Assembly (NCBI GenBank): GCA_017308345.1
Contig: JAFKFE010000255.1
Location: 1 to 12,291 of the forward strand
Source of the DNA: Alphaproteobacteria bacterium
GTDB taxonomy: Bacteria; Pseudomonadota; Alphaproteobacteria; Rhizobiales; Rhizobiaceae
Length of the DNA stretch: 12,291 nt
Direction of reading: 5' to 3'
The position numbers and the translations under genes are program-made. Under the pieces are notes generated by a model. It had not been told where the DNA came from. It was given only the letters and a program-made list of their open reading frames with translations, and did not search any database. Shown here piece by piece: positions 1 to 6,798 of this stretch (its first letter is position 1; every line of letters begins with the position of its first letter).

Positions 1-418
1 AGCGGTTCGGCCATCGTGAGGCGCACCGTCCCCTGCAGGGCCTCCTCGCTGTACAGGCGGTGCGTCGCCGTCCGGCCGAACCCGGGTCCGTCATAAGGCG
101 GGAACACGGAGAGATCGGCCGCATGGGACCGAAGCAGGATCTTGCCCTTGTCGTCGCGGATCACGTAGGTCAGAAGTTCGTCATGGCTGCGGATCGCCCC
201 AAGGCGCTGGCTGGCGACGTCTTCGTCCTCGCGACCCACGATGTCCAGGACCGCCAGGGGAAGCAGGCGTTGCGCGGTCTCCTGGAGGGATGAATCGAAG
301 ACGTCCTCGATGCCGTGCCGCAGCAGCACAGCCGTAGCCCACGCCGCGCCGGCCCAGATCATCAGCAGAACCGCTCCAAGCGTCAGGAGGAGCCTGCCCT
401 GGAGGCTTCGCGGACGTC

Positions 419-422
<4 letters not shown>
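1..422 (-). CDS. Two-component sensor histidine kinase, N-terminal part (cut by window edge)
   Basis: Only the first 140 residues are present; the kinase core lies beyond the left edge. The start is a GTG at 422-420 whose bases overlap the response-regulator stop (GTGA, 4-bp overlap), so the two genes are translationally coupled. The protein begins with a basic stretch (MRRPRSLQGR) followed by a hydrophobic helix at about residues 11-34. A predicted periplasmic region follows, with the pattern DSSLQETAQRLLP and then LTYVIRDDKGKILLRS. That pattern is typical of the 2CSK_N sensor domain of the QseC/TctE/PmrB kinase group. The partner is the regulator immediately upstream. The signal is unknown. 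The identification rests on the N-terminal pattern and the overlap with a cognate regulator, since no H-box or ATPase motif can be seen here. Confidence 0.85.
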
Positions 423-1078
<656 letters not shown>

Positions 1079-1119
1079 TGTCATTCGCCTTTTCGCGGCT
1101 GCTGCCTTCCTTGCCGGAC

Positions 1120-1177
1120 GTTCCTGACACCAGCCTGAAGCGGATTGCGCGCGAACTTCAGGATAGCGTCAGCTTGG
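1120..1177. promoter_or_regulatory. Candidate response-regulator operator, copy 1 (divergent control region)
   Basis: The gap between the regulator and the PepSY gene holds two facing boxes. The plus-strand box is CCTGAC-N5-CCTGAA at 1123-1139. The minus-strand box is GCTGAC-N5-CCTGAA, occupying 1173 down to 1157. Each box is two hexamers repeated every 11 bp, the geometry known for PmrA/QseB-type regulators. The boxes are separated by 17 bp. The same layout recurs at 1635-1692, with 38 of 58 positions identical by hand alignment. Clear -10/-35 hexamers could not be assigned. Binding by the adjacent regulator is inferred. Confidence 0.6.
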
Positions 1178-1225
1178 CCCTCCACTTTGCGTTGGCGCAA
1201 ATCGGTTGGAACGGAGTCCATGCCC

Positions 1226-1543
1226 ATGCGGCTTGCCCTGACAATTCTCGCGTGCGTCGCGGCCTTCTCCGCCGGGCCGGCGCGCGCCGATGACGAATGC
1301 TTCGTCCCGATGGCGGACTGGAAGCCGAGGGAGGCCGTCGCCGCCCTTGCGGCCGAGCATGGCTGGACGGTGCGCCGGATCAAGATCGACGACGGCTGCT
1401 ATGAGATCGACGGCACCGACGCTCAGGGTCAGCGGATCGGGGTGACCGTCCATCCGTCGACCCTCGAGATCATCCAGATCGAATCCAGGGACGGCGCCGG
1501 TCATCGGCACCGCGACGATGAAGGCCGCCACGACGGTCAATGA
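1226..1543 (+). CDS. Small exported PepSY-domain protein
   Basis: This predicted periplasmic protein has 105 residues from the ATG at 1226. That start is preferred to the ATG at 1220 because GGAG at 1213-1216 is then 9 bases away and not 3. Residues 1-21 form a Sec signal peptide ending at an ARA-like site. The mature part (ECFVPMADWKPREAVAAL, then HGWTVRRIKIDDGCYEIDG, then a HPSTLEIIQI strand) matches the PepSY_2 pattern. Two cysteines (C25 and C58) could form a disulfide. The tail is rich in His, Arg and Asp and might bind metal. The gene is divergent from the two-component pair and shares its control region. PepSY proteins beside two-component systems are often regulon members or sensor modulators, so a feedback role is plausible but unproven. 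It is probably monocistronic, since a terminator follows. Confidence 0.85.
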   Translation: MRLALTILACVAAFSAGPARADDECFVPMADWKPREAVAALAAEHGWTVRRIKIDDGCYEIDGTDAQGQRIGVTVHPSTLEIIQIESRDGAGHRHRDDEGRHDGQ

Positions 1544-1609
1544 CTTCGCCCCGGCCTCGCCGGCGGAGTGGCCCGACCGCGGGGTATCCAAAAAGCAGAG
1601 AGCCATTCA

Positions 1610-1632
1610 GGCCCCGTTTCGGCGGGGCCTTT
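1610..1632 (+). terminator. Rho-independent terminator after the PepSY gene
   Basis: A perfect 7-bp GC stem, GGCCCCG (1610-1616) with CGGGGCC (1623-1629), has a 6-base loop and is followed by TTT. The U-tract is short, so efficiency may be partial. An A-rich run (about 1588-1594) precedes the stem on the other side. The terminator separates the PepSY gene from the operon that starts at 1733, so the second operator copy is a fresh promoter region. Confidence 0.65.
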
Positions 1633-1634
1633 CG

Positions 1635-1692
1635 GTTCCTGACGGCAAGCTGAAGCAGAAAGTCCATTTCCGTCAGGAACGGATCAGCCTGG
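1635..1692. promoter_or_regulatory. Candidate response-regulator operator, copy 2 (before the flavin electron-transfer operon)
   Basis: The plus-strand box CCTGAC-N5-GCTGAA lies at 1638-1654. The minus-strand box GCTGAT-N5-CCTGAC occupies 1688 down to 1672. Box length (17), inter-box gap (17) and orientation match those at 1120-1177 exactly. Part of the layout also reads as an 11-bp perfect inverted repeat, GTTCCTGACGG/CCGTCAGGAAC (1635-1645 and 1670-1680). Only one transcription unit starts here, at 1733, so the facing arrangement belongs to the operator and is not a by-product of divergent promoters. Confidence 0.6.
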
Positions 1693-1732
1693 ACCCTCAG
1701 AACGGCGCCAGCAGAAAAAAGGAGATCCTGCC

Positions 1733-2077
1733 ATGAAAAAGACCTTTGTCACCTTGCTCGCCTCGACGGCGCTGATCGCCGGGATCGGCCTGCCGGCATG
1801 GAGCGCGATGCACGGCGCCGACCTGTTCGAAGGACCGCGCGATGCGGCCCTGGCTGCCTTTCGCGAAGCGGGCGCGTCCCCGATGCTGGTCAGCGATGAT
1901 GACGGCGAAGGCCGTGATCACGAACGCCGGTTGCATCGCGGGGGCGATAGCGACGAAGAGGATGATGACGATTCCGATGGCGGCAACGCCCCGGGTCCGG
2001 CTCCAGCCGGGAGCGTGGCTCCTCCGGACAACGGCCTCTTCGGCACCGGCGCGGCGCCCAAGGTTCAGGTGAACTGA
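1733..2077 (+). CDS. Small exported acidic protein of unknown function
   Basis: This 114-residue protein is the first gene of the electron-transfer operon. The start is supported by AAGGAG at 1719-1724, 8 bases upstream. Residues 1-25 form a Sec signal peptide (KK, then a hydrophobic core, then AWSA). The mature protein has a short Ala-rich, probably helical segment (about 36-47) and an Asp-rich stretch from about 55 to 82 that includes DSDEEDDDDSD. A Pro/Gly/Ala linker follows, with a C-terminal NGLFGTGAAPKVQVN motif. It matches no domain that I recognise. The charged, low-complexity middle could bind cations or act as a flexible spacer. Position in the operon and export suggest a periplasmic accessory role next to the DUF2271 protein. 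The gene is real by start signal, signal peptide and operon position; its function is open. Confidence 0.8.
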   Translation: MKKTFVTLLASTALIAGIGLPAWSAMHGADLFEGPRDAALAAFREAGASPMLVSDDDGEGRDHERRLHRGGDSDEEDDDDSDGGNAPGPAPAGSVAPPDNGLFGTGAAPKVQVN

Positions 2078-2117: not shown

Positions 2118-2588
2118 ATGAAGACCATCCTCGCCGCCTTGGCTCTGACCACGGCGCTGACGTTCCCCGGCATCGCCATGGCGCGGCCGGTAACCCTTAC
2201 CACCACGCTGAAGGACTATGGCGGCAACGGAGCCTACCTCGCCATCTATGTCACGGACCCCAAGGGCGCCTACGCCGGCAGCCTGTGGATGGCCGGAACC
2301 AAGTCCAAATACTACGAGCACCTGTCCGACTGGTACCGCGCGACGGGCGGCAACACGGCCGAGATCAATGGCATCACCGGAGCGAGCGTGGGCGCCGGCC
2401 GCCGGCTGGAGATCACGCTCGACCTCGCCGACGCGCTCTTCGACGCGGGCTACACCGTTCACATCGACGCGGCCGCCGAGGACATGCGCGACAGCCCCAA
2501 CGAGATCGCCGTGCCGCTGACTGCCGAGGGAGCGGGACAGTCCGTCCCGGGCCGCCGCTACATCGCGAACTTCAGCTACGGCATGTAA
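2118..2588 (+). CDS. Exported DUF2271 protein, candidate covalent-FMN carrier
   Basis: This protein has 156 residues. AAGGAA lies about 9 bases before the ATG. A Sec signal peptide runs to about residue 22 (FPGIAMA). The mature part fits the DUF2271 family: beta-rich, with LWMAGTKSKYYEHLSDWYRA, then INGITGASVGAGRRLEITLDL, and ending in IANFSYGM. The TGAS at 87-90 sits where family members carry a GAT/GAS motif. It resembles the (S/T)GA(T/S) sequence at which ApbE attaches FMN through a Ser/Thr, with S90 the likely acceptor. The apbE-type gene two genes downstream and the membrane flavoreductase directly downstream support a role as the periplasmic flavin-bearing end of an electron-transfer chain. 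Family membership is fairly sure; flavinylation is inferred. The last position of the extended motif is Gly and not Ser/Thr. Confidence 0.85.
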   Translation: MKTILAALALTTALTFPGIAMARPVTLTTTLKDYGGNGAYLAIYVTDPKGAYAGSLWMAGTKSKYYEHLSDWYRATGGNTAEINGITGASVGAGRRLEITLDLADALFDAGYTVHIDAAAEDMRDSPNEIAVPLTAEGAGQSVPGRRYIANFSYGM

Positions 2589-2600
2589 GGGGCCGCAACG

Positions 2601-4805
2601 ATGATCCGTGCCCTTCACCGCTGGGTGGGCCTGCCGGCTCTGGTCCTCGTGACGCTCCTTGCCGTCAGTGGCGCGGCGCTGTCCATCTTCCCGGCGGCGG
2701 AGCGGATCTCCGCACCTCAGGCGGAACAGGCTATGAGCGTCGCGGACCTTGCCGCGCGTATCAAGGCCGCCTTCCCGGGAGTCGAGCAGATCCGGCGCTC
2801 GCCGTCGGGGCGCATCACCGCCTACTGGTTCGACGGCGGCAAACCGGCGTCGGCGGTCGTCGACCCGGCGACAGGAGCCGCCACGGCTCCGGCTGACCCC
2901 AACCCCCTGCAGCGTTGGCTCACCAACCTGCACCGCTCGCTGTTCCTTGACGATGCCGGCCGCATCGCCATGGCAGCGGGAGCGGCGGCCATGCTCGCCC
3001 TCGCCGTCTCTGGTTCCATGCTCGTCGCGCGGCGCGCCGGGGGGTGGAGACGCTGGTTTGCTCCGCTTCGGGGACCTCTGGCGGGGCGTGTGCATGTCGA
3101 GCTTGCCCGGGTCGCCGTGCCCGGCCTTCTGCTGTCGGCGGCGACGGCGCTCTGGATGACGGCCTCGACCTTCGGGCTCCTTCCCGACAAGGCGGCGGTC
3201 CCGGAATTGCCAGCCGCAAGCGGCACGATTGGCGCCCGGCTGACATCGATGCCTCTGCTCGTGGCGACACCGGTCTCGAGCCTGCGCGAGCTGAGCTTCC
3301 CCTCTCTCGAGGACGCCACCGACGTCTTTACGCTCAAGACGAACGCCGGCGCAGGCTATCTCGACCAGGGAACAGGGGCGACGCTCGGCTGGTCCGGCTT
3401 GAGCGGCTGGGCGCGCGTCTCCGAAACCATCTACATGCTTCACACCGGACAGGGCGCCGCGCTGCTCGGCCTGCTTCTGGGGCTTTCGGCGCTTGCCGTC
3501 CCTGTCATGGGCGCCACGGGACTCCTCATCTGGCTGGCGAACCTGAAAGGTCGCCCCACGATCCGCGACAATGCCGCGCCGGGCCGCGCGGAGACGGTCA
3601 TCCTGGTCGGAAGCGAGGGCGGCAGCACCTGGGGCTTTGCCGGGACACTGCACGCGGCGCTGACCCGCGCCGGTCAGCGTGTCCACACCATGCCGATGTC
3701 GGCGTTCGACCCCGGCCGCTTTTCCGGTGCGCGGCGGTACCTCGTCCTTGCCGCGACCTACGGCAATGGCGATCCGCCCGCGTCGGCCAAAGGGTTCCTC
3801 GATCGAGTGGCCGCACTTTCCACCGCCCCGGAGGCAAGACTGGCGGTGCTCGGCTTCGGCGACCGGAGCTTCCCGGCCTTCTGCGCCTACGCCAAGGCGG
3901 TCGCCGATGCCGCGCAAGACAAGGACTGGCCGCTTCTGCTGCCCTTCGAAACGGTGGACCGCCAGTCGCCGCAGGAATTCACCCGTTGGGGCCATGCGCT
4001 CGGTGCCGCGCTCGGCGTCGAACTGGAACTGGACCATCAGCCCGTTCGCCCCGAAACCAAGGCGCTGGTGCTTGTTTCGCGACGGGACCATGGCCACGAA
4101 GTCCAGGCGCCGACCGCGATCCTGCGTTTCGCCCTGCCACGCCCATCCGCATGGCAGCGCCTGACAAGACGTGGATTCGCTGGCTTCGAGGCCGGAGACC
4201 TGCTCGGCATCGTGCCGGAGGGATCGCCAGTGCCACGCTTCTATTCCCTCGCTTCGGGCAACCGTGACGGGTTCGTGGAGATCGTGGTGCGCAGGCATCC
4301 CGGCGGCATCTGCTCGGGCGAACTCATGGCGCTCGAACCGGGTGGGACCGTCGCCGGCTTCATCCGCCGCAATCCCACGTTCCACGTCGCACGCGACAGC
4401 GCTCCCCTCATACTGATCGGAGCGGGCACCGGAATAGGACCGCTTGCCGGCTTCATCCGCGCCAATACCGCGCGGCGGCCGATTCACCTGTTCTTCGGCA
4501 TGCGACTTCCAGGAAGCGATTTCCTCTATCGCGAGGAGCTCGAAGCCTGGGCGGCCGCCGGCAGGCTATCCAGCCTGTCCACGGCGGTCTCCCGTGGAGC
4601 GCGGCCGCGATACGTTCAGGACGCACTGGCAGCCGAGCAGCTCGAAGTCGTCCGCGCGATACGCAAGGGCGCGCGCGTCATGGTCTGCGGCGGGCGGCAG
4701 ATGGCGGCCGGGGTGGCGGAGACGATGGCGCGTATGCTTGAACCGCTTGGCCTGTCGCTTGCGGTCTTGAAGGCACAGGGGCGCTATGTCGAAGATGTCT
4801 ACTGA
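2601..4805 (+). CDS. PepSY/membrane-heme domain fused to flavodoxin and NAD(P)H:FAD reductase
   Basis: This 734-residue membrane protein probably moves electrons from cytosolic NAD(P)H outward. AAGGGG (2587-2592) overlaps the DUF2271 stop and precedes the ATG by 8 bases. The PepSY/TM part has helices at about 9-31, 121-143, 167-194 and 284-313, with periplasmic loops at 32-120 and 195-283. Histidines H6 and H165 (cytosolic side) and H111 and H281 (periplasmic side, LHTG) could ligate two b-hemes. The flavodoxin domain (about 332-470) shows GSEGGSTWG, ATYGNGDPP and FGDRSFPAFC. The reductase domain shows RFYSLAS (546-552) for FAD, GGICSGEL (568-575), the nucleotide loop GAGTGIGPLAGF (607-618), VMVCGG and a terminal GRYVEDVY like CysJ. 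Its end overlaps the apbE start. The fusion layout is typical of such proteins. Heme ligation is inferred from position. Confidence 0.93.
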   Translation: MIRALHRWVGLPALVLVTLLAVSGAALSIFPAAERISAPQAEQAMSVADLAARIKAAFPGVEQIRRSPSGRITAYWFDGGKPASAVVDPATGAATAPADPNPLQRWLTNLHRSLFLDDAGRIAMAAGAAAMLALAVSGSMLVARRAGGWRRWFAPLRGPLAGRVHVELARVAVPGLLLSAATALWMTASTFGLLPDKAAVPELPAASGTIGARLTSMPLLVATPVSSLRELSFPSLEDATDVFTLKTNAGAGYLDQGTGATLGWSGLSGWARVSETIYMLHTGQGAALLGLLLGLSALAVPVMGATGLLIWLANLKGRPTIRDNAAPGRAETVILVGSEGGSTWGFAGTLHAALTRAGQRVHTMPMSAFDPGRFSGARRYLVLAATYGNGDPPASAKGFLDRVAALSTAPEARLAVLGFGDRSFPAFCAYAKAVADAAQDKDWPLLLPFETVDRQSPQEFTRWGHALGAALGVELELDHQPVRPETKALVLVSRRDHGHEVQAPTAILRFALPRPSAWQRLTRRGFAGFEAGDLLGIVPEGSPVPRFYSLASGNRDGFVEIVVRRHPGGICSGELMALEPGGTVAGFIRRNPTFHVARDSAPLILIGAGTGIGPLAGFIRANTARRPIHLFFGMRLPGSDFLYREELEAWAAAGRLSSLSTAVSRGARPRYVQDALAAEQLEVVRAIRKGARVMVCGGRQMAAGVAETMARMLEPLGLSLAVLKAQGRYVEDVY

Positions 4806-5724
4806 CCTTGAACGCCACGCCCTCAACGGGCCGACGATGGGCACGCGCTGGTCCGCGTTGTTCCATGCTCCGTCCGGCTTCGACGCGGCGCCTGTCCGTG
4901 CGGCCCTCCAGGCCGCGGTTGACGAAGTGGACGCGCAAATGTCGACATGGAAACCCGACAGTGACCTGACGCGCCTCAACCAGGCCCCGACCGGGGAGTG
5001 GGTGACGGTTCCAGGACGCCTCCTGGACGTGATCCGGCTGGGGCTGAAGATCGGCCGGGAATCGGGTGGCGCTTTCGACATCGGCTTGGGCGACGCCGTG
5101 ACCGCGTGGGGCTTCGGCCCAGCCGGAGCCAGTCCGGACGGTATCCGCGAAGCGACGCGGGCGAGGCGGTCGCCTGCCCACGACGTGCTGGAGATCGACG
5201 GAACAAGGATTCGCAAGAAGGGGCGAATGACACTTGACCTCAATGGCGTCGCCAAGGGTTACGGCGTGGACCGTCTTGTCGAAATCCTCGGCGGCTTCGG
5301 AATCCGCGACGCGCTCGTGGGCATCGATGGCGAGATGCGGGCCATGGGCCTCAGACACGATGGCGACGCAGGCGACTACCGCCACTGGATCGAGGTGAAG
5401 GGCCGACGCCTCTCCCACACGATGGACCCAGTCCGTGGCGCGCCTCTCATGCAATCCCCGGCCTCGGTCACCGTCATAGCGCCAACCTGCGTCGAGGCGG
5501 ACGCCTGGGCGACCGCGTTCATGGTGCTCGGCCCGGATAGAAGCGGAGAGATTGCGCGACGGTCGAGGCTCAATGCTCTGTTCCTGCTTCGCGGTGAGGC
5601 GGACAGTATCCGCTGCTGCCGGATCGGCGGCTTGTTCAGCGGCGGACAGACGTCGGTTCCGCCGGACGGAGCCGGGCGCGATGGGGCACTCGACCGGGGA
5701 CCGGCTGTTGCAAGCCCCTTCTGA
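4786..5724 (+). CDS. apbE: FAD:protein FMN transferase (ApbE family) with a shortened core
   Basis: The product would transfer FMN from FAD to Ser/Thr of a partner protein. It has 312 residues. The ATG at 4786 overlaps the upstream gene by 20 bp (AGGGG at 4777-4781); an alternative ATG is at 4795. ApbE motifs are clear: GPTMGTRWS (15-23), SDLTRLN (59-65), SGGAFDIGLGDAVTAWGFGP (93-112), DLNGVAKGYGVD (151-162), GIDGEMRA (179-186), HTMDP (211-215) and EADAWAT (237-243), with D239/T243 as likely magnesium ligands. Two oddities stand out. No signal peptide is visible, although the likely substrate is exported. About 30 residues normally found between the GEMRAMGLR strand and GDYRHW, including the ISTSG-type motif, are absent at residues 193-196, in frame. 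The C-terminal 30 residues are Gly/Pro-rich and unfamiliar. Family certain; activity uncertain. Confidence 0.9.
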   Translation: MSKMSTDLERHALNGPTMGTRWSALFHAPSGFDAAPVRAALQAAVDEVDAQMSTWKPDSDLTRLNQAPTGEWVTVPGRLLDVIRLGLKIGRESGGAFDIGLGDAVTAWGFGPAGASPDGIREATRARRSPAHDVLEIDGTRIRKKGRMTLDLNGVAKGYGVDRLVEILGGFGIRDALVGIDGEMRAMGLRHDGDAGDYRHWIEVKGRRLSHTMDPVRGAPLMQSPASVTVIAPTCVEADAWATAFMVLGPDRSGEIARRSRLNALFLLRGEADSIRCCRIGGLFSGGQTSVPPDGAGRDGALDRGPAVASPF

Positions 5725-5742: not shown

Positions 5743-6798
5743 TCACGTCAGGGCTTGTCCCGGTCCGATCAGCACGGCGGCGCGGTAGGGCGGATTGCCG
5801 TACCAGGCCATCCGGTCGAGCTCCGCCGCCCTGACCGGCAGGTCGACAACGTCCATCGGCTGTTCGAGCCGGTCGGGCTCGACCCAGGGATCGTTGAGGA
5901 AATAGATGCCGTCGCCATGGCCATGGACGAGCACCCAGTGCGGGCAGGTGTAGCCCATCATCGGCGCCTGATCGATCAGCACCAGCGCCGAGAAGCCGCG
6001 ATCGAGCGCCCGGCCGATCTCTTCGACCCCAAAGGCGCGTGCCTCGTTCGGAAGGGCCGCGGCTTCGACCTGGCGCTTGAAACCCGCCTGCACGAAGCTC
6101 ATCAGGCCGCGCCTTTCCTCCGAACTGGCCCGGTCGAGGAAGATCGGTTCGGCGCTGCTCATGAAAACCTCAGCCCGCACTCCGCGCCGGTGCGCGGCCA
6201 GCGCCAGGCCGTAGGGGTCGCAGCCGCCCGGACCGCTCGGACCGATGATGGTGGTGGCCTCGCGCCAGAGCTGGACCTCCAGCGCGCGGTCCGGCCGCAA
6301 CGCCGGATCGATCCCGGCCATCGCCATGGCCAGCGCCGACGGCCCGCAAGTGAAGCCCGCCGTCTGCGGCCAGGACGGCGGAACCTGGTCCCGGCGCCGG
6401 GTCGGTTCGATACCGATCCAGCGTTGCAGGAACCCATTCCGGCGCTCCCACAGGCCGCCAATGCACCGCGCCGTGTCCTCACCGGCGCGCAGGCAGAGCA
6501 CATCCTGCGCGTACGCCTCCTTCTCCAGCACCTCCAGCAGGCGCGGGCCGTCACCCGCGACGAAGCTGGCGGCCGACCAGAACAAGGCGATACGCATCAT
6601 TGCGGCCGCCGGACGGCGCAGGCCGACCATGATCGCCTGCGGGCGGCCTTCGCTGTATTGCGCCACGCCGGTGACGCCAGCGACCTTCCGCAGGGCAGCC
6701 AGACGATCACCGATCCCGGCCGGCACCGCCGCCATCAGGCCCGACCAGGCGGACGCATCCGCGGCGGTGAAGAGTGTCACACTGGTCATTGGCGGCAT
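5743..6798 (-). CDS. C39-like cysteine peptidase family protein (DUF3335)
   Basis: This 351-residue protein is convergent with apbE (18 bp between the stops). The C-terminal two thirds match the DUF3335/peptidase C39-like family: QTAGFTCGPSALAMAMA with catalytic C151, then ALEVQLWREATTI and GPGGCDPYGLALAAHRRG, then CPHWVLVHGHGDGIYFLNDP with H287 and D303. The Cys-His-Asp triad is therefore complete. Residues 1-135 are not clearly assignable; related proteins carry a GNAT acetyltransferase there, and this part could be a diverged remnant. There is no signal peptide, so it probably acts in the cytosol. The start is uncertain: ATG at 6798 or 6789, neither with a Shine-Dalgarno sequence. The family often occurs with RimK-like ligases, and none is seen here. 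Its promoter appears to be overlapped by the TetR operator. The substrate is unknown. Confidence 0.85.
   Translation of the reverse strand: MPPMTSVTLFTAADASAWSGLMAAVPAGIGDRLAALRKVAGVTGVAQYSEGRPQAIMVGLRRPAAAMMRIALFWSAASFVAGDGPRLLEVLEKEAYAQDVLCLRAGEDTARCIGGLWERRNGFLQRWIGIEPTRRRDQVPPSWPQTAGFTCGPSALAMAMAGIDPALRPDRALEVQLWREATTIIGPSGPGGCDPYGLALAAHRRGVRAEVFMSSAEPIFLDRASSEERRGLMSFVQAGFKRQVEAAALPNEARAFGVEEIGRALDRGFSALVLIDQAPMMGYTCPHWVLVHGHGDGIYFLNDPWVEPDRLEQPMDVVDLPVRAAELDRMAWYGNPPYRAAVLIGPGQALT

Follow-up and report, generated by a model that had tools for sequence, protein, structure and literature searches.

Which regulator would read a four-part sequence that stands before two transcription units of one gene module, and why is its layout the same between divergent genes and in front of a single operon? 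The window, by which we mean the whole stretch of 12,291 nucleotides analysed here (an alphaproteobacterial contig, JAFKFE010000255.1), holds both copies (Table 1).

The operator and its module

The original prediction had aligned positions 1120-1177 with 1635-1692 without gaps at 38 of 58 positions. Our recount agrees, and the match lies above all controls: it is the best 58-mer pair of both intergenic regions and was reached by none of 500 dinucleotide-shuffle pairs (maximum 32) and none of 904 random segment pairs from the window (maximum 35). The two regions share a 49-bp core, CTGA-N7-CTGA-N19-TCAG-N7-TCAG. Its four half-sites, described earlier as CCTGAC-like, are exact in their CTGA and TCAG cores at 4/4 places in both copies (copy 1, CTGA 1124-1127, CTGA 1135-1138, TCAG 1158-1161 and TCAG 1169-1172; copy 2, CTGA 1639-1642, CTGA 1650-1653, TCAG 1673-1676 and TCAG 1684-1687), and the proposed geometry of two hexamer-N5-hexamer boxes with an 11-bp period and a 17-bp gap between them agrees as well. 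Because the promoter-proximal box, read towards the nearest gene, is TTCAG-N6-GTCAG (GTCAG-N6-ATCAG in copy 2), we call the boxes back to back; by the PmrA/PhoB reading direction, both boxes of an operator would face outwards. Within 1635-1680, copy 2 also has a perfect inverted repeat of 11 bp, GTTCCTGACGG/CCGTCAGGAAC, of which a shorter form, TTCCTGACG/CGTCAGGAA, can be seen in many orthologs.

Table 1. Coordinates of the operators, predicted promoter elements and genes in the window
Feature	Position	Strand	Remarks
Sensor histidine kinase	3-617	-	Pfam 2CSK_N, 23.5 bits, barely over the cut-off of 23.2; gene cut by the window end
OmpR/PhoB-type response regulator, PmrA/QseB-like	419-1084	-	Pfam Response_reg and Trans_reg_C; proposed binder of both operators
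Putative -10 of regulator promoter (CAAGGA)	1108-1113	-	A at 1112 (-)
Operator copy 1	1124-1172	none	Between divergent regulator and PepSY_2 genes; exact core
Putative -10 of PepSY_2 promoter (CACTTT)	1183-1188	+	A at 1184
Secreted PepSY_2 protein	1220-1543	+	Pfam PepSY_2
Terminator-like hairpin of PepSY_2 gene	1609-1632	+	Directly 5' of copy 2; fold z-score -4.73 (1600-1640)
Operator copy 2	1639-1687	none	5' of flavin operon; exact core; promoter signature on right side only
Putative -10 of flavin operon (CAGAAC)	1698-1703	+	A at 1699
Small acidic secreted-looking protein	1733-2077	+	First flavin-operon gene; no Pfam family; BLAST matches in many orthologous loci
DUF2271 protein	2118-2588	+	Pfam DUF2271; TGAS flavinylation motif in translation
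PepSY_TM - flavodoxin - NAD-binding fusion, transmembrane electron transfer	2601-4805	+	Pfam
ApbE flavin transferase	4786-5724	+	Pfam ApbE

The histidine kinase frame listed from 617 overlaps the regulator gene, so its true start lies further in. A G+C-rich hairpin and T run comparable to that of the PepSY_2 gene precedes copy 2 in many orthologs. By Pfam the window brings together PepSY_TM, DUF2271 and ApbE genes, the same gene set as in published PepSY-like flavinylation clusters, in which DUF2271 is a proven ApbE substrate with the flavinylation motif [S/T]GA[S/T] (PMC8238504). The TGAS of the window's DUF2271 protein fits that motif; since it is of the type flavinylated by ApbE elsewhere, the flavin operon very likely builds an extracytosolic flavoprotein electron-transfer path, by which electrons probably leave the cell. 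The passages on these clusters in PMC8238504 give an account without such two-component control or such an operator, and no description of two-component control of flavin-based extracytosolic electron transfer was found in the literature searched. A DUF3335 (peptidase C39-like) gene at 5743-6798 (-) converges on the flavin operon and is unrelated to it as far as seen.

Conservation and regulon

The ortholog set comprised the window and 34 loci found through the regulator protein, with identities from about 64% upwards, 35 in all; many of these loci are related, so that the counts are non-independent, and some are near copies, leaving 32-33 distinct flanks. An operator lies upstream of the regulator in 35/35 loci with 15-16 of 16 core bases, so the loss of the half-sites among related genomes, named in the original prediction as the result that would speak against it, is absent. 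At copy 1 the boxes are separated by N19 in 28 loci and N20 in 7, and the spacer bases are nearly random. In 24 of the 31 loci that extend over the flavin genes, a second operator stands upstream of these, and the spacer is N19 in all 25 copies found (at least a 15/16 match, N18-20 allowed); in L033 and L058 this second copy lies several hundred bases ahead of the first flavin gene found. Copy 2 was not found in 7 of the 31 (L008, L044, L046, L050, L051, L056 and L059; best 9-12 of 16). Because the flavin genes of L008, L056 and L059 appear within roughly 50 bp after a PepSY-like frame, the upstream operator there may serve them too. Start-codon distances were scripted from the first open start codon and are noisy; the spacing arguments rest on other data.

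Two further observations concern the arrangement of single loci. L006 carries three operators at about 2150-3300, one of them at the regulator and the others ahead of the acidic-protein gene and of DUF2271, respectively. L044 and L050, on contigs titled Vulcaniibacterium and Burkholderiales, encode a regulator 79% identical together with copy 1 and flavin genes, which suggests that the whole module moved horizontally out of Alphaproteobacteria.

Genome scans used the four-half-site core; two half-sites alone yield too many chance matches. In the source assembly (79.9% complete, 1307 contigs) the only exact sites were the two copies in the window, and there was no further core at 1-2 mismatches. 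The 11 places found at 3 mismatches, compared with 6 in the reversed control, were taken as background and rejected as targets. An order-wide scan (397 genomes, N18 or N19) returned 64 exact sites in 47 genomes and none for the reversed pattern; 30/30 loci fetched from these genomes have one or more module proteins encoded no further than about 1.5 kb away, the sole one near the site in L148 being PepSY_2-like. Together with the two exact sites in the window, these loci bear out the earlier proposal of a single regulon: a conserved operator, presumably bound by the PmrA/QseB-like regulator, ties the PepSY gene and the flavin operon to the two-component genes. No prior description of this operator was found in the literature searched, most subscription papers lying outside its reach.

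Promoter signature

With flanks aligned on the outer half-site and position +12 counted in distinct flanks, copy 1 has an A at +12 on both sides, in 29/32 flanks towards the regulator and 31/33 towards PepSY_2. At copy 2 the A is present in 23/23 flanks on the flavin side and 2/23 on the opposite side (P about 7e-11, right versus left). Ten tandem operators (L131-L140), with the kinase gene on one side and the flavin operon on the other, are similarly one-sided, with an A at +12 in 10/10 on the flavin side and 1/10 on the kinase side. We read this A as the likely second base of a -10 element, with the proximal box overlapping the -35 region in class-II style. At copy 2 and at the tandem operators the distal box has no promoter signature of its own, yet it is retained with N19. 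Because these operators have the signature on one side only, two back-to-back boxes are best read as a property of the operator, independent of divergent promoters, as had been claimed for the two facing boxes.

Box spacing and helical phase

A class-wide scan (385 genomes, N8-38) found 34 sites in 31 genomes and none in the control, with 12 at N9, 2 at N10, 10 at N19, 1 at N20 and the rest scattered. A phylum-wide scan (398 genomes, N1-31) gave 8 at N9, 4 at N10, 18 at N19 and 2 at N20, with 3 matches (2 genomes) in its reversed control. Spacers of N9-11 or N19-21 account for 40/42 loci with module-associated sites and for 9/22 module-free sites. Longer spacings also occur: regulators 53-63% identical from the window's genus have operators with N28, N29, N40 and N71 (in L010 the core matches 16/16 at N71 and just 14/16 at N28), and a family-wide scan (111 genomes; reversed control 0) found N30, N38, N40 and N49 operators beside modules. 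An A at +12 is present on 18/18 sides of nine long-spacing module operators, compared with 15/56 sides of 28 module-free sites from the class and phylum scans and 7/18 sides of nine from the family scan.

Across relatives the spacer classes are N9, N19/20, N28-30, N38-40, N49 and N71, mostly whole helical turns apart. This phasing is not absolute, because the module operators of L161 (N16) and L229 (N35) are out of phase; both have an A at +12 on both sides. The N35 operator (L229:1501-1565) has identical 15-bp arms, forms a perfect palindrome and adjoins a PepSY_2-like gene. In a periodicity test designed after the data had been seen, which compared one modal spacing per regulator cluster with 5000 uniform draws, the observed periodicity was equalled by 0/5000 draws at 65% and 70% clustering and by 21/5000 at 60%; clustering at 55% identity left seven spacing values, and 140/5000 draws equalled it. 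The mostly whole-turn spacing supports cooperation between two regulator dimers that would bind the operator.

Operators with N9 go with regulators of other clades, 37-52% identical to the one in the window and likewise accompanied by PepSY genes; at these operators the A is most often found at +13 (11/15 and 9/15, as estimated from fractions). Six loci (L159, L160, L163, L167, L183 and L196) represent a sister system of another regulator clade, in which an N9 operator separates a PepSY gene from a PepSY-regulator operon. The module-free sites are more numerous at N9 (4) and N10 (4) than an even spread would give, and some of them may be real targets. An A at +12 on both sides, with no module protein found within 1.5 kb, also marks L234 (N41), L235 (N52) and L238 (N73) and the class- and phylum-scan sites L180, L197 and L210. 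In G030, G003, G008, G022, G025, G014 and G036, the 57%-identical regulator is accompanied, at a distance of about 1.9 kb, by a second copy that is shorter and whose match stops at an in-frame TGA; in G030 an N30 operator is close to this second copy.

Comparison with known operators

The regulator belongs to the OmpR/PhoB family by its Pfam scores, which are over the cut-offs (84.9 bits for the receiver, 81 bits for Trans_reg_C). A QseB/PmrA-like regulator had been predicted beside copy 1; the gene is there and its best PDB relatives are PmrA/BasR, but its NCBIfam scores fall below the equivalog cut-offs for both PmrA (202 bits versus 330) and QseB (191.7 bits versus 345).

The PmrA box consists of two head-to-tail hexamers, 5 bp apart, bound by an OmpR/PhoB-family dimer (PMC3973317). 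Of the earlier label of a PmrA/QseB-type box, the architecture stands, a direct repeat with a 5-bp spacer and an 11-bp period being present in 4/4 window boxes and in the 35 orthologous loci; the sequence does not, the half-site being TTCAG/GTCAG and not CTTAAT/CTTAAG. The PmrA (BasR) box of enterobacteria has the half-sites CTTAAT / CCTAAG and is single, whereas the window operator has CTTCAG / CGTCAG and two boxes back to back. Ser197 and Arg198 of the regulator, the latter in its recognition helix, align with His195 and Asn196 of PmrA, and PmrA Asn196 corresponds to PhoB Arg201, a guanine contact (PMC3973317). An arginine at this position fits a half-site nearer to PhoB's than to the TTAA of PmrA. 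PhoB of P. aeruginosa binds head-to-tail GTCA(C/T) with 6-bp spacing (PMC8041468), close to the window's GTCAG-N6-GTCAG; the window operator differs in its extra opposite box at fixed spacing, in its presumed regulator, another family member, and in the genes it precedes.

AgrR of Cupriavidus metallidurans, likewise an OmpR-family protein, has been inferred to act by Type II activation with autoregulation, and its operator is described as having for its core an inverted ATTACA repeat (6-4-6), with imperfect direct repeats as an optional addition (PMC7380067). The window operator differs from this in half-site sequence and spacing; in the operators analysed here it is the direct-repeat box that is strictly kept, and the distance between the inverted boxes changes by helical turns. 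In E. coli, the qseBC-ygiW genes are arranged likewise, a regulator and its kinase diverging from the gene of a small secreted protein, and the MG1655 ygiW-qseB intergenic region shows CTTAAC-N5-CTTAAG, with no opposite box visible there by eye. UzcR of Caulobacter presumably also lies near PepSY auxiliary proteins. Its motif, CATTAC-N6-TTAA (PMC8963506), differs from the window operator.

Model and alternatives

We propose that each 49-bp core is the operator of the adjoining OmpR/PhoB-type regulator and would hold one dimer on each of its two direct-repeat boxes, whose half-sites are 11 bp apart and which, placed back to back, each read outwards. Because the proximal box sits at the -35 place, with the -10 beginning 11 bp past the outer half-site, the regulator, once phosphorylated, would act as a class-II activator in the manner of PhoB and bring in RNA polymerase. 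Copy 1 would serve two promoters, those of the regulator-kinase genes and of PepSY_2, and copy 2 that of the flavin operon only. There the distal dimer probably has a stabilising or activating effect on its proximal partner, perhaps through head-to-head contact, because in this single-promoter copy the distal box is preserved and its spacing unchanged. Once the kinase's presumed signal arrives, such a positively autoregulated, module-only circuit would raise the periplasmic flavoprotein electron-transfer system. We put at roughly 80% the probability that the four-part operator switches the flavin module through the neighbouring regulator, with back-to-back dimers, PhoB-like activation and a module-only regulon.

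The same phasing could instead reflect negative control, in which a second dimer at the distal box, perhaps unphosphorylated, holds a repressing complex or loop until the signal comes. Helically phased site pairs are typical of loops, and phase is kept here up to N71; the -35 replacement geometry favours activation, though the data here do not separate the two modes, and we consider negative control unlikely. A little less likely again is that the boxes are independent, each driving its own promoter without dimer contact, with copy 2's distal box as a remnant or as the site for a weak leftward transcript. Each box does have its own promoter signature in divergent contexts, and the spacing is not strictly fixed, as N16 and N35 show. 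Yet copy 2 and the tandem operators keep an exact distal box at N19 throughout, although this box lacks a signature (2/23 and 1/10), and independent boxes would not be expected to give whole-turn spacing classes.

It is improbable that the sites belong to another regulator, such as an iron regulator with an iron-reduction module as its target. The N9-class operators contain TGA-N9-TCA, which resembles what we take to be the RirA/IRO box. PepSY/DUF2271 clusters have moreover been reported as Fur-repressed in Shewanella and Caulobacter (PMC8238504); against such a regulator, the sites track a window-type regulator gene in 35/35 orthologs, distinct spacer classes accompany distinct regulator clades, and the window copies have N19, not N9. 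We rejected as highly improbable the reading of the inverted repeats as RNA elements such as attenuators, since copy 2, with its perfect repeat, folds better than shuffles (z -2.78) but copy 1 does not (z -0.81), the operators lie upstream of the -10-like element, and an Rfam search of 900-2300 gave no match.

Implications

With slightly less than even confidence, we suggest an operator class in which two regulator dimers sit back to back on a defined helix face and their separation evolves by whole turns only (N9-N71, about six turns), the distal dimer being required even at single promoters; this would be an enhancer-like unit of several PepSY-associated regulator clades of Proteobacteria. 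A direct-repeat box bound by an OmpR/PhoB regulator is usually regarded as a unit by itself, and the unusual, testable feature of this operator is its whole-turn spacing: the natural collection of whole-turn variants, together with one- and two-promoter operators, makes dimer-dimer cooperation testable. In addition, the operator sequence has the specificity needed to trace regulators of flavin-based extracytosolic electron transfer and to link them.
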